From the NCBI GenBank assembly GCA_910585575.1, contig CAJUFS010000010.1:1-55446 (forward strand): a stretch of 55,446 nt of DNA, read 5' to 3'. Positions within the stretch are counted from its first letter, which is position 1, and every line of letters starts with the position of its first letter. A program made the translations under genes and the position numbers. The DNA comes from an uncultured Adlercreutzia sp. GTDB lineage: Bacteria; Actinomycetota; Coriobacteriia; Coriobacteriales; Eggerthellaceae. Shown here in pieces: positions 11,631 through 22,820 of this stretch. The notes under the pieces were generated by a model. It did no database searches, was not told where the DNA came from, and saw nothing but the letters and a program-made list of their open reading frames with translations.

Positions 11631-12047
11631 TTACGAGCGGGCGCGCTCATCGAGCCACGACTGCAGAAACAGACTTGCGGCTATCATATCAACCTTGCCG
11701 CGCATCGACCTTTCGTCATGGCCCTTTTCACGCAAAATGCGTTTGGCCTCGGCGGAACTTAAGCGCTCATCGGCGAAAACGTGCGGCAGATCGCACGCGG
11801 CGCTGATGGTCGCGGCATTCTGGCGAATGCGCGCCGCCTGGGGGCCTTCCTCCCCCGCCAGCGTGCGGGGCAGGCCGCATACCAAAAGCTCCGGCTCCCA
11901 GTCTTCCAGCACGCGCTTGAACGACTTGGCGTTCGCCAGCACCTCGGCCGCCGGCAGCACGCACACGGGGCTCGCCACCCGCTCGCCCGGGTCGCTGACG
12001 GCCACGCCCACGCGCACCTCTCCGATATCGAGCGCCATAACCCGCAT
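11631..12047 (-). CDS. ruvX: Putative pre-16S rRNA nuclease / Holliday junction resolvase (YqgF)
   Basis: A 138-residue YqgF/RuvX RNase H-fold protein of normal size. The first acidic residue is in MALDIGEVRVGVAVSD, the second conserved block is LLVCGLPRTLAGEEGPQA, and the last is DERLSSAEAKRIL followed by KVDMIAASLFLQSWLD. The family is implicated in 16S rRNA maturation and possibly junction resolution. It begins three bases after the TelA stop, so it is likely co-translated with that gene, an arrangement that separates it from alaS here. Confidence 0.93.
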   Translation of the reverse strand: MRVMALDIGEVRVGVAVSDPGERVASPVCVLPAAEVLANAKSFKRVLEDWEPELLVCGLPRTLAGEEGPQAARIRQNAATISAACDLPHVFADERLSSAEAKRILREKGHDERSMRGKVDMIAASLFLQSWLDERARS

Positions 12048-20337: not shown

Positions 20338-21663
20338 CTAGCCCTGAGGCCGGCGGTCGCGGGCGGCGGCGTCGGTGCGATAAGCCTCCCAGCCTCGTTC
20401 GCTGGGCTGGTAGAAGCAACCGCGCTCCAGGCCGTCGGGCAGATACTGCTGATCAACCCAACCGCCGGGATAGTTGTGGGGATAGCGATAGGTGCCGTAG
20501 TTCTCGGAACCGGGACGGTGCCGGTCGCGCAAATAATCGGGCACCTTGCGGGCTGGCCCGTTGCGCACCTCGCGCAGGGCAGCGTCGATGGCCGCCTCGG
20601 CAGCATTCGACTTGGGGGCCAGGGCCAAGTAGATGGCTGCCTGGGCCAGGTTGATGCGACACTCCGGGTACCCGATAACCTCGGCGGCGCGGAAGGCCGC
20701 TTCGGCCACCAGAAGCGCCTGGGGGTCGGCGTTGCCGATATCCTCCGAGGCGGCAATGTACATGCGTCGGGCGATGAACTTCGGGTCCTCTCCCCCGTCA
20801 ATCATGCGGGCAAGCCAATACACGGCCGCATCGGGATCGCTGCCGCGCATGGACTTGATGAACGCGGAGATGATGTCGTAGTGCATGTCCTTGTTCTTGT
20901 CGTAGGGCAGCGCGCGATGCGGCGTGGCGGTGCGCACCATAGCCTCGGTAATGGCCGCCGGCGCCTCGGCCGTTCCCGGGGCCACCAAAGCCGCCGCCAG
21001 CTCCAGGGTGGTAAGCGCCCCGCGACCATCGCCCCCAGCTAAGGTGACGATGGCGTCAAGGGCTGCATCCTCTACTACGTACTGCCTCGCCAGACCGCGC
21101 TCATCGGCCACGGCACGGCGCACCAGCTGGGCAATTTCCTCGTCGGAAAGCGAATGCAGCTCCACCACGCGCGACCGCGAAATAAGAGCCGAGTTCACCT
21201 CGAAGAAGGGGTTTTCCGTAGTAGCGCCCACCAGCACCACCAGACGGTCCTCCACCGCATGGAGCAGCGCATCTTGCTGGGAGCGATTGAAACGGTGGAT
21301 CTCGTCCACGAACAAGATGGTACGCAGCCCACCCATGACAAGCCGCTTTTCGGCCGCGTCAATTTCACGGCGCAAGTCGGACACGGTGCCCCCAATAGCA
21401 GACACCTCCACAAAAGTGGCTTTTGTGGACTCGGCAATGACATGGGCCAGCGACGTTTTGCCCGTGCCTGCTGGCCCGAACAAGATAACCGAGCTAAGCG
21501 CGTCGTTCTCGATAGCCGCACGCATCCAGCTTCCCTCGCCCACGGCCTCGGCTTGGCCCACCACCTCGTCGAGCGTACGCGGCCGCATACGCACCGCCAA
21601 AGGCGCCACCGTGAGCTTCTGATCATTCTCCATTGCAGTAAACAAAGTATCCATAGCGAACAT
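20338..21663 (-). CDS. rarA: Replication-associated recombination protein RarA
   Basis: A 441-residue AAA+ ATPase (MgsA/RarA) that acts at stalled replication forks. Walker A is ILFGPAGTGKTSLAHVIAE, Walker B ILFVDEIHRFNRSQQDALLHAVE, sensor 1 LVGATTENPFFEVNSAL, and the C-terminal tetramerisation region contains SFIKSMRGSDPDAAVYWLARMIDGGEDPKFIARR-like sequence followed by DIGNADPQAL and PECRINLAQAAIYLA. Length is normal. Two in-frame ATGs (21663 and 21654) are possible. Its leader is unusual: a structured RNA with its own promoter and terminator ends 37 bases upstream, so the terminator may attenuate rarA. Confidence 0.95.
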   Translation of the reverse strand: MFAMDTLFTAMENDQKLTVAPLAVRMRPRTLDEVVGQAEAVGEGSWMRAAIENDALSSVILFGPAGTGKTSLAHVIAESTKATFVEVSAIGGTVSDLRREIDAAEKRLVMGGLRTILFVDEIHRFNRSQQDALLHAVEDRLVVLVGATTENPFFEVNSALISRSRVVELHSLSDEEIAQLVRRAVADERGLARQYVVEDAALDAIVTLAGGDGRGALTTLELAAALVAPGTAEAPAAITEAMVRTATPHRALPYDKNKDMHYDIISAFIKSMRGSDPDAAVYWLARMIDGGEDPKFIARRMYIAASEDIGNADPQALLVAEAAFRAAEVIGYPECRINLAQAAIYLALAPKSNAAEAAIDAALREVRNGPARKVPDYLRDRHRPGSENYGTYRYPHNYPGGWVDQQYLPDGLERGCFYQPSERGWEAYRTDAAARDRRPQG

Positions 21664-21699
21664 GGTAGCACATTTGTTCGAATAGCAACATCTCGCTGC

Positions 21700-21738
21700 A
21701 AAAAAGAAGCGGCCCAGCCGGAGGGGGCCGGCTGGGCC
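21700..21738 (-). terminator. Intrinsic terminator of the structured RNA, ahead of rarA
   Basis: An 11-bp perfect GC-rich stem (GGCCCAGCCGG / CCGGCTGGGCC) with a six-base loop and a T-rich tail on the minus strand. It lies 37 bases before the rarA start, and 270 bases beyond the galU stop. Confidence 0.85.
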
Positions 21739-21830
21739 AGAAGGAGGGGGATTGCGACTCTCTCAGGAGTCGCTTTCTGCTTTAAAAGAGACAAAGCAGG
21801 CAAGTGATCGGAGGGGTTGTCTCACTTGCT
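21700..21830 (-). ncRNA. Candidate structured small RNA (or rarA leader) with C-rich loops
   Basis: Read on the minus strand there are four consecutive hairpins. HP1 has 7-bp arms 21801-21807 / 21822-21828 and loop GACAACCCCTCCGA. HP2 has arms 21777-21783 / 21793-21799. HP3 has arms 21754-21760 / 21767-21773. HP4 is an 11-bp GC stem (21711-21721 / 21728-21738) with loop CCCCCT followed by GCTTCTTTTTT, a strong intrinsic terminator. The linker between HP3 and HP4 is also C-rich (AATCCCCCTCCTTC). An extended -10 would start RNA exactly at the base of HP1. It resembles the actinobacterial 6C RNA in plan; identity with that family is not shown. No open frame explains it. Confidence 0.65.
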
Positions 21831-21836
21831 GACGTC

Positions 21837-21845
21837 AGTATAACA
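21837..21845 (-). promoter_or_regulatory. Extended -10 promoter of the structured RNA
   Basis: The plus strand AGTATAACA reads TGTTATACT on the minus strand: a TGn extension and TATACT hexamer. The expected start lies seven bases on, at about 21830, the first base of hairpin 1. The -35 is weak, as is common with extended -10 promoters. The rest of 21846-22007 shows no gene; a GGGG...CCCC hairpin near 21931-21945 follows galU without a T-run. Confidence 0.6.
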
Positions 21846-22007
21846 AGCACCCTTGAATTCCCTATGACGGAGCCGTGGTGAACTTGTGGATTTGATTACT
21901 CATCGTTAAGTTTTTCGTCACCTTTTCTGGGGTTTTGCGCCCCAAAGTCTTCGTCGGCCCCCACCGAGCGTGCGCCGAGCCAAGCCACCGCGCGCCCACC
22001 GTCCTCT

Positions 22008-22820
22008 CTAGGCGTTCTGGCGCTCGAACAGAATGTTGTTCGTCTCCAGCCAGCTTTCCACCGTGCCTGTGTCGAACCCGTCGTCGGGGTTCACCACCAA
22101 CGCGTACATCTCCTCTTCCTGAAGCACCGCGTCGAGCGCGTCGGTCAGCTGGATCTCGCCGCCCACACCGGGCTCGACATCGGCCAGAAGCTCCATCACG
22201 CGCGGCGAGAGCAGGTAGCGCCCGAACACGGCCAAATTGGACGGCGCGTCCTCAAGGGCCGGCTTCTCCACCAGCGAGTCCACCTTCCACACGTTGTCGG
22301 CCACCGGGGCACCGGCAATGACGCCGAAACGGCTTACCTGATCGTCGGGCACCGGCATCACGGCAATGACACTGGCACCATTATGGGCATCGGACACCTC
22401 CTTCATAGCCGGCAGCATGTCGTTGCCCGGCACCAGCACATCGCCCAGCAGCACATAGAAGGGCTCGTCGGCCGTTTGCTCGGCGGCGCAGCGGACGGCA
22501 TGGCCCAGGCCCAGCGCCTCCTCCTGATACACGTAGCCCACATTCAGGTTGCCCACGTACTCGACGGCATCGGCATAGGCGTCCTTACCGCGCTCGCGTA
22601 AAAGCGCCACCAGCTCGGGGTTCGGCGTAAAATGATCTTCAATGGCCTGCTTCTCGCGGCTGTTGATGATGATCACCTCATCGGCGCCCGAGGCCAAGCC
22701 CTCCTCGACCACGTACTGAATAGCGGGGCGATCCACCACCAGCAGCATCTCCTTCGGCTGAGCCTTCGTGGCCGGCAGGAAGCGGGTACCCAGGCCCGCA
22801 GCGGGAATCAGTGCCTTCAT
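22008..22820 (-). CDS. galU: UTP-glucose-1-phosphate uridylyltransferase
   Basis: A 270-residue nucleotidyltransferase that makes UDP-glucose for envelope sugars. The N-terminal KALIPAAGLGTRFLPATKAQPKEMLLVVDRP-type signature is present, with the later INSREKQAIEDHF, GLGHAVRCA and LLGDVLVPG segments and VEKPALEDAPSNLAVFGRYLL. It is slightly shorter than E. coli GalU (302) but of usual length for Gram-positives. AAAGG lies seven bases before the ATG. It is divergent from apbE, with 67 bases between the two starts. Confidence 0.95.
   Translation of the reverse strand: MKALIPAAGLGTRFLPATKAQPKEMLLVVDRPAIQYVVEEGLASGADEVIIINSREKQAIEDHFTPNPELVALLRERGKDAYADAVEYVGNLNVGYVYQEEALGLGHAVRCAAEQTADEPFYVLLGDVLVPGNDMLPAMKEVSDAHNGASVIAVMPVPDDQVSRFGVIAGAPVADNVWKVDSLVEKPALEDAPSNLAVFGRYLLSPRVMELLADVEPGVGGEIQLTDALDAVLQEEEMYALVVNPDDGFDTGTVESWLETNNILFERQNA

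Follow-up and report, generated by a model that had tools for sequence, protein, structure and literature searches.

A putative C-rich, often multicopy small RNA of Eggerthellaceae preceded by a response-regulator-type promoter box

The subject of this analysis is a small RNA (sRNA) gene in a 55,446-nt stretch of DNA from an uncultured Adlercreutzia sp. of the family Eggerthellaceae (contig CAJUFS010000010.1 of assembly GCA_910585575.1), the whole of which is referred to as the window. When the minus strand is read from 21890 to 21700, four CA-cored repeats, the hexamer TATACT, an RNA with four hairpins (H1 to H4) and a T-run follow each other between galU and rarA (Table 1). Collectively, our data suggest that this RNA is probably a free-standing, intrinsically terminated and trans-acting sRNA of Eggerthellaceae, often present in several copies, which would be induced by a response regulator and would block G-rich Shine-Dalgarno regions. 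Its minimum free energy is predicted at -58.1 kcal/mol compared to a mean of -34.17 (SD 3.86) for dinucleotide-preserving shuffles (z = -6.2), of which none out of 200 was as stable, and the four-hairpin RNA with its intrinsic terminator is confirmed as a real feature of the window. Transcription is expected to start around 21830, a single base away from 21829, where pairing in H1 begins, in agreement with a preliminary description made from the sequence, which had placed the start on the first base of this hairpin. The layout given there, three hairpins followed by a terminator with a T-run, was recovered by folding, in which the terminator stem comprises 12 bp (11 in that description), and the C-rich H1 loop, linker and terminator (H4) loop were all located and are unpaired in the predicted fold. 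The claimed extended -10 element is present in the window, where TG accompanies TATACT, whereas many relatives do not share the TG; the common feature is the box of four CA units with 11-bp spacing upstream of the -10. The first ATG of rarA at 21663 lies 36 bases past the T-run (37 in the preliminary description); rarA is a neighbour of the RNA and probably not the gene it regulates.

Table 1. Coordinates of the sRNA gene, its promoter box and the neighbouring genes in the window. R1, covariance model of the RNA (see text).
Feature	Position	Strand	Evidence and remarks
sRNA gene body, about 130 nt	21700..21831	-	R1 covariance match 21701-21831, E 7.7e-29 (the sequence itself is in the model); fold z -6.2
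-10 hexamer TATACT	21842-21837	-	read from sequence; TG at 21845-21844
Hairpin 1 (H1), 8 bp	21829-21822/21807-21800	-	fold; loop CCCCTCC at 21816-21810
Hairpin 2 (H2), 8 bp	21799-21792/21784-21777	-	fold; loop CU-rich in the window copy
Hairpin 3 (H3), 7 bp	21773-21767/21760-21754	-	fold; loop not C-rich
C-rich linker CCCCCTCC	21750-21743	-	predicted unpaired
Hairpin 4 (H4), intrinsic terminator, 12 bp	21739-21728/21721-21710	-	loop CCCCCT 21727-21722; then GCTTCTTTTTT; T-run 21705-21700
Response-regulator-type box, four CA-cored units, 11-bp period	21851..21890	-	CA starting at 21888, 21877, 21866, 21855
rarA, neighbour	20338..21663	-	Pfam MgsA_C, AAA
galU-like nucleotidyl transferase, neighbour	22008..22820	-	Pfam NTP_transferase

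The structure was evaluated with an alignment of 22 motif-cut copies (A1), which is the basis of the covariance model R1 (L numbers denote loci, G numbers genomes). L011 was excluded from it for its near-identity to L010, L029 because it is incomplete, and other loci because all their matches were partial. In A1, 92.4% of the cells are paired compared to 38-44% in controls with slid partners, and both-sided changes occur in 15 of the 32 pairs, which was reached by none of 500 shuffles. The search of 44 chosen loci returned 63 matches representing 61 distinct copies. Each of the 32 pairs, including all 8 of H1 and all 10 of H4, shows a both-sided change in some of these copies (247 such cells versus 58.8 in shuffles), with the reservation that the 61-copy alignment leans towards the structure because it was fitted to the model. 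The covariation over the 61 distinct copies supports all four stems, and compensatory changes across Eggerthellaceae, which the preliminary description had proposed to look for, are found in both alignments.

The C-rich single-stranded sites are a conserved property of the RNA. CCCC is present in the H1 loop of 59, the linker of 60 and the H4 loop of 58 of the 61 copies, in the H2 loop of 31 and in the H3 loop of one. The CCC stretches of H1, H2, linker and H4 have predicted mean unpaired probabilities of 0.99-1.0 (0.99 for the linker) compared to 0.44 for the whole RNA, and the linker is the most conserved stretch, its CCCCUCC columns reaching 1.6-2.0 bits versus a stem mean of 1.23. Four sites with CCCC were counted in 31 of the 63 rows, three in 27 and fewer in 5. 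Many copies from Eggerthella and Gordonibacter show, by eye, CUCCCCU in the H1 and H4 loops and ACCCCUU in the H2 loop; together with the linker these make four C-rich sites, while the window copy has three. A small coding gene was ruled out by the short open reading frames, the longest closed one having a median of 6 amino acids and at least 20 amino acids in 5 of the 61 copies. The plus strand folds well too, as expected for the complement of hairpins; a CsrA-type sponge formed by the G-rich complement on that strand was rejected because the -10 box and the T-run are both situated on the minus strand.

In the DNA search of 138 genomes of the family, the nine genomes of the window's genus (counting the window genome) all gave the element with E values no weaker than 2.5e-45, and it was also found in more distant genera; of the 101 genomes matched at E up to 1, many represent short chance matches. 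The covariance model R1 matches 105 of the 138 genomes, 76 of the 92 good-quality ones and 39 of the 48 genera, with one to four matches per genome and a single one in many genomes. Three copies are clustered inside about 2 kb in each of G052, G065, G068 and G075, and the window genome (G000) harbors a second, diverged copy with four C-rich sites (G000:C14:14296-14427, i.e. L071:6297-6428). Genomes of the window's genus have two or three matches each, one of which is located 13-16 kb from pstA in G005 and G007. In wider samples, R1 matched 108 of 396 genomes of the class, of which 90 belong to the family while 18 do not and have E values between 2.5e-7 and 0.009, and 16 of 296 genomes of the phylum, of which 9 belong to the family while the other 7 have E values no better than 6e-4; since about three chance matches are expected at the cut of 0.01 per genome, most matches outside the family are near chance. 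A match in G416 from another family of the order (L220:1566-1700) looks like a true relative and is likely to be one, because its first hairpin carries ATCCCCTCC, its linker reads ATCCCCTCCTT, the terminator loop is C-rich and CAC units at 11-bp spacing lie upstream. Finally, an exact motif pattern scan of named genomes, which may omit records near the window's own genome, gave 26 stretches; the ones labelled with a genus come from Adlercreutzia, Gordonibacter, Eggerthella sinensis, Paraeggerthella, Enteroscipio, Rubneribacter, Enterorhabdus and Ca. Aphodovivens, which are Eggerthellaceae, and two have uninformative names. The scan of viral contigs found the pattern in none of them.

The promoter region is marked by a box of CA units that stands where a -35 element would be. 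When 60 copies were aligned on the -10 hexamer, with L073 skipped for want of a recognisable -10, CA recurred at -46, -35, -24 and -13 with 1.3-1.6 bits per base. TATA[C/A]T is readable ahead of the RNA in most aligned rows, its conservation in this set being given by construction because the hexamer served as anchor. Four CA units are present in 47 of the 60 copies, three in 7, one in a single copy (L087) and none in five (L027, L086, L071, L072 and L024:1180); in the best phase, the period of 11 yields 3.5 units per copy compared to 0.97 to 1.9 for periods of 8-10 and 12-14. Repeats of 11 bp are the usual site type of OmpR/PhoB-type regulators, and control of the RNA by a regulator of this type appears likely. 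In Streptomyces, PHO boxes are described as being built from direct repeat units of 11 nt, of which some promoters have four (PMC7866108); the box found here shares the period of 11, the comparison with the Streptomyces units covering their spacing.

R2, a sequence model, was built from 46 of the 60 promoters after 14 had been omitted (8 with a weak or missing box and 6 near-duplicates) and thus describes boxed promoters by choice; it matches the window box at E 1.2e-9, the window site being among its 46 rows. In 17 genomes, R2 found the RNA copies at E 1.7e-4 or better, and all else remained at or below 18.4 bits, some of it apparently inside coding regions, so that no regulon of other genes with the same box was found in these genomes. 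Some further sequence elements were observed. Many copies carry GTTAC or CACCGA at the same place, at about -68 from the -10 and upstream of the box, perhaps as a second control site. In three genomes, CACAAAATGCG-CACA repeats in 11-bp phase that resemble part of the RNA box occur at L121, L122 and L123, on the opposite strand of the interval that separates an apparent infA from the rpsM region. At L133 (G019), the 11-bp phased array CACAATAAGCC-CACGTTCGATT-CACA precedes a gene for a foldase-like lipoprotein (named by reading) by about 110 bases. Rough gene calls that include antisense frames served for orientation only.

The gene neighbourhood provides a candidate for the regulator. In G017, family matches and sequence reading give the order galU, RNA, an S-methyltransferase-like gene, an mscS-like gene, a response regulator, a kinase and rarA, and the corresponding block of Eggerthella G052 also includes pst and nrdDG (names by sequence reading; pstS and pstA by family match). 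Hence, the galU-RNA-rarA order of the window is most simply explained as such a larger block that has lost its middle. The best NCBIfam match of the linked regulator is PhoB and that of the kinase PnpS/PhoR, both below the curated cut-offs. Of the 105 genomes that have a copy, 95 entered the linkage counts, joined for pstA by 90 of the 96 genomes with a pstA match, and all linkage numbers refer to the matches listed. Where one contig carries both a copy and a relative of the regulator with at least 70% identity, the two are at most 40 kb apart in 27 of 27 genomes; in 13 further genomes they are on separate contigs. Relatives with 48-69% identity are equally near a copy in 8 of 13 genomes. In five genomes with 15-21 OmpR-type regulators each, the pst-locus regulator is the one nearest to a copy in four. 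The best pstA match shares a contig with a copy in 35 genomes, in 27 of which the distance is at most 40 kb, and is on a separate contig in another 39. A PstS family match was found near copies in seven of eight genomes searched, none above the curated cut-off, the eighth being G000 in which it is absent. It is an even bet that the linked PhoB-like regulator with its PhoR/PnpS-like kinase is the regulator of the RNA.

The RNA could not be assigned to a known family. The Rfam 15 search of the window gave only a transfer RNA at gathering score, and the weak matches over 21600-21950 stayed below it (Hrs10, on the opposite strand, with 21.2 of 108 and E 0.018; atoC with 18.5 of 50; sX13 with 17.1 of 50), which excluded 6C or another Rfam family. 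Kinship to 6C had been proposed for checking, but the 6C model matched nothing in the window at gathering score and nothing in 21600-21950 at E up to 10. The 6C RNA of actinobacteria has C-rich loops on two stem-loops; the RNA of Eggerthellaceae shares the C-rich loops and the actinobacterial origin but possesses four hairpins, and the likeness is one of mechanism only. In the case of sX13 from Xanthomonadaceae (RF02232), the C-rich terminator loop aligned, at E 0.47 and 17.1 bits compared to the gathering score of 50. Among the sRNAs described in the literature, LhrC1-5 of Listeria monocytogenes are encoded in five copies, depend on LisRK and present the UCCC motif both in their loops and in the unpaired strand that joins the stems (PMC4132741). 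Likewise, the Eggerthellaceae RNA is often multicopy with C-rich motifs in loops and a linker that are predicted to be unpaired; it differs from LhrC as described there in having four hairpins and a C-rich loop inside the terminator, and two-component control, which is reported for LhrC, is in our case suggested by the 11-bp box and the linked PhoB-like regulator. Staphylococcal IsrR consists of three stem-loops plus terminator with three C-rich regions, represses translation and is controlled by Fur (PMC9410917), while the present RNA is preceded by an 11-bp repeat box and reaches four matches in a genome, both RNAs being compared by description. The LhrC study describes this C-rich sRNA strategy for low-G+C Gram-positives (PMC4132741), and our literature searches among open papers returned no regulatory RNA of Eggerthellaceae.

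It is most likely that the RNA works like LhrC and IsrR. The stems would then represent a scaffold that keeps three or four (U)CCCCU motifs unpaired, and these motifs would pair with G-rich Shine-Dalgarno regions of mRNAs to block their translation, as reported for the two sRNAs. An OmpR/PhoB-kind response regulator would bind the four 11-bp repeats, which take the position of a -35 element, and thereby switch on the main class of copies; the likeliest regulator would be the PhoB-like protein with the PhoR/PnpS-like kinase from the same gene block. Several observations weigh against parts of this interpretation. A search for AGGAGGGGA at 1-8 bases before ATG gave 30 sites in five genomes (2-11 per genome) versus 13 for the pattern read backwards, an excess as any Shine-Dalgarno-like motif would show, and 3 of the 30 sites are the RNA's own antisense; the genes behind them include, by sequence reading, ferredoxin-like subunits, a kinase and LuxR-type membrane regulators. 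An OppD-like ABC gene (named by reading) with AGGAGGGGAG in two genera was dismissed as target because the site, which overlaps the stop codon of the preceding gene, is not conserved: among the 9 of 18 orthologues with a readable start, 3 have AGGAGGGGA and 6 lack it. Regarding the regulator, the second copy of the window's genus (G000, G003 and G005) has no 11-bp box, another OmpR-type regulator lies 12.6 kb from one of the two copies in G062, and in G021 and G027 a copy lies near pstA but not on the contig that carries the close regulator. The Adlercreutzia genomes G000, G002 and G003 keep RNA and box but gave neither a match to the regulator at E 1e-66 nor one to pstA; such a regulator match is missing in 27 of the 95 genomes with a listed copy, and 19 genomes have the regulator without a listed copy, four of them with a weak unlisted one. 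Moreover, an 11-bp-phased array of four units upstream of pstS has, by eye in seven genomes, other cores (TTTAC/TTGAC/CCGAC/TTGAT) and is scored about -20 or lower by the RNA box matrix, and the linkage within one inherited gene block does not count as independent evidence for each genome.

The alternative that the RNA acts in cis as an attenuator in the leader of rarA, which the preliminary description had offered beside a trans-acting sRNA, draws on its position just upstream of and co-oriented with rarA in the window, in five other loci of the same genus and in L049 from another genus. This arrangement with rarA is not conserved. The gene was examined across further loci. It was found in reach at 13 loci, 6 co-oriented (all from the window's genus) and 7 divergent, to which L049 and the divergent L069 add for a total of 8 divergent among 15. 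No rarA was detected in 13-19 kb around the copies at the nine loci L074 to L082 (Gordonibacter, Eggerthella, Paraeggerthella and others), it is about 16 kb away from the RNA in one Eggerthella genome, and the order in G017 suggests that its adjacency was left over from the larger block. Hence, rarA attenuation is refuted as a general function and a leader is extremely unlikely, while the trans-acting half of the earlier proposal is favored by conservation, covariation and multiple copies. RNAs such as RsmZ act as protein sponges, and it might also be considered that the RNA is a sponge or scaffold for a C-rich-binding protein or Rho and does not pair with mRNAs. Repeated, alike C-rich loops on variable stems would fit such a sponge as well, and no conserved target was found; however, the linker keeps CCCCUCCUU, which goes beyond a plain C tract and complements AAGGAGGGG, and C-rich sRNAs of similar layout are reported to pair with mRNAs (PMC4132741, PMC9410917), which makes this explanation improbable to us.

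A trans-acting sRNA could also belong to the phosphate regulon proper as its repressing arm, being switched on via PhoP/PhoB at low phosphate. This is a special case of the interpretation preferred here, so that the chances of the two overlap, and we regard it as possible with some doubt. The PhoB-like regulator and PhoR/PnpS-like kinase, the proximity of copies to pstA and the 11-nt direct repeats of Streptomyces PHO boxes, four in some promoters (PMC7866108), are in line with it. On the other hand, the RNA occurs in genomes without pstA match, and in seven draft genomes (G016, G017, G018, G036, G055, G056 and G058) the regulator is 2.6-8.7 kb from the RNA with the best pstA on another contig. 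The differing cores of the pstS array also speak against it, and the same box upstream of pstS was discarded for this reason and for the poor matrix score. The array, observed at L207 around 11985-12030 on the minus strand and at L208 to L213 (weaker in L208 and L212), may possibly be the phosphate box of Eggerthellaceae, distinct from the RNA box. Accordingly, phosphate as inducing signal is a tentative assignment, and phosphate limitation is a guess that rests on linkage. A rather unlikely extension is that the RNA, as repressing arm of a PhoB/PhoR-like two-component system, carries up to four anti-Shine-Dalgarno mimics per copy (linker CCCCUCCUU, which would resemble the 16S rRNA end) that would titrate the strongest G-rich ribosome-binding sites and so impose a broad translational brake instead of addressing a narrow list of targets.

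Eggerthellaceae such as Eggerthella, Gordonibacter and Adlercreutzia are involved in drug and polyphenol metabolism in the human gut. In this regard, a family-wide, multicopy and two-component-linked sRNA with a clear pairing motif represents a direct handle, as cultures of Eggerthella can be used to probe it. With it, the C-rich sRNA strategy would reach a lineage of high G+C content, in which abundant G-rich stretches are to be expected and would bear on how targets are chosen.
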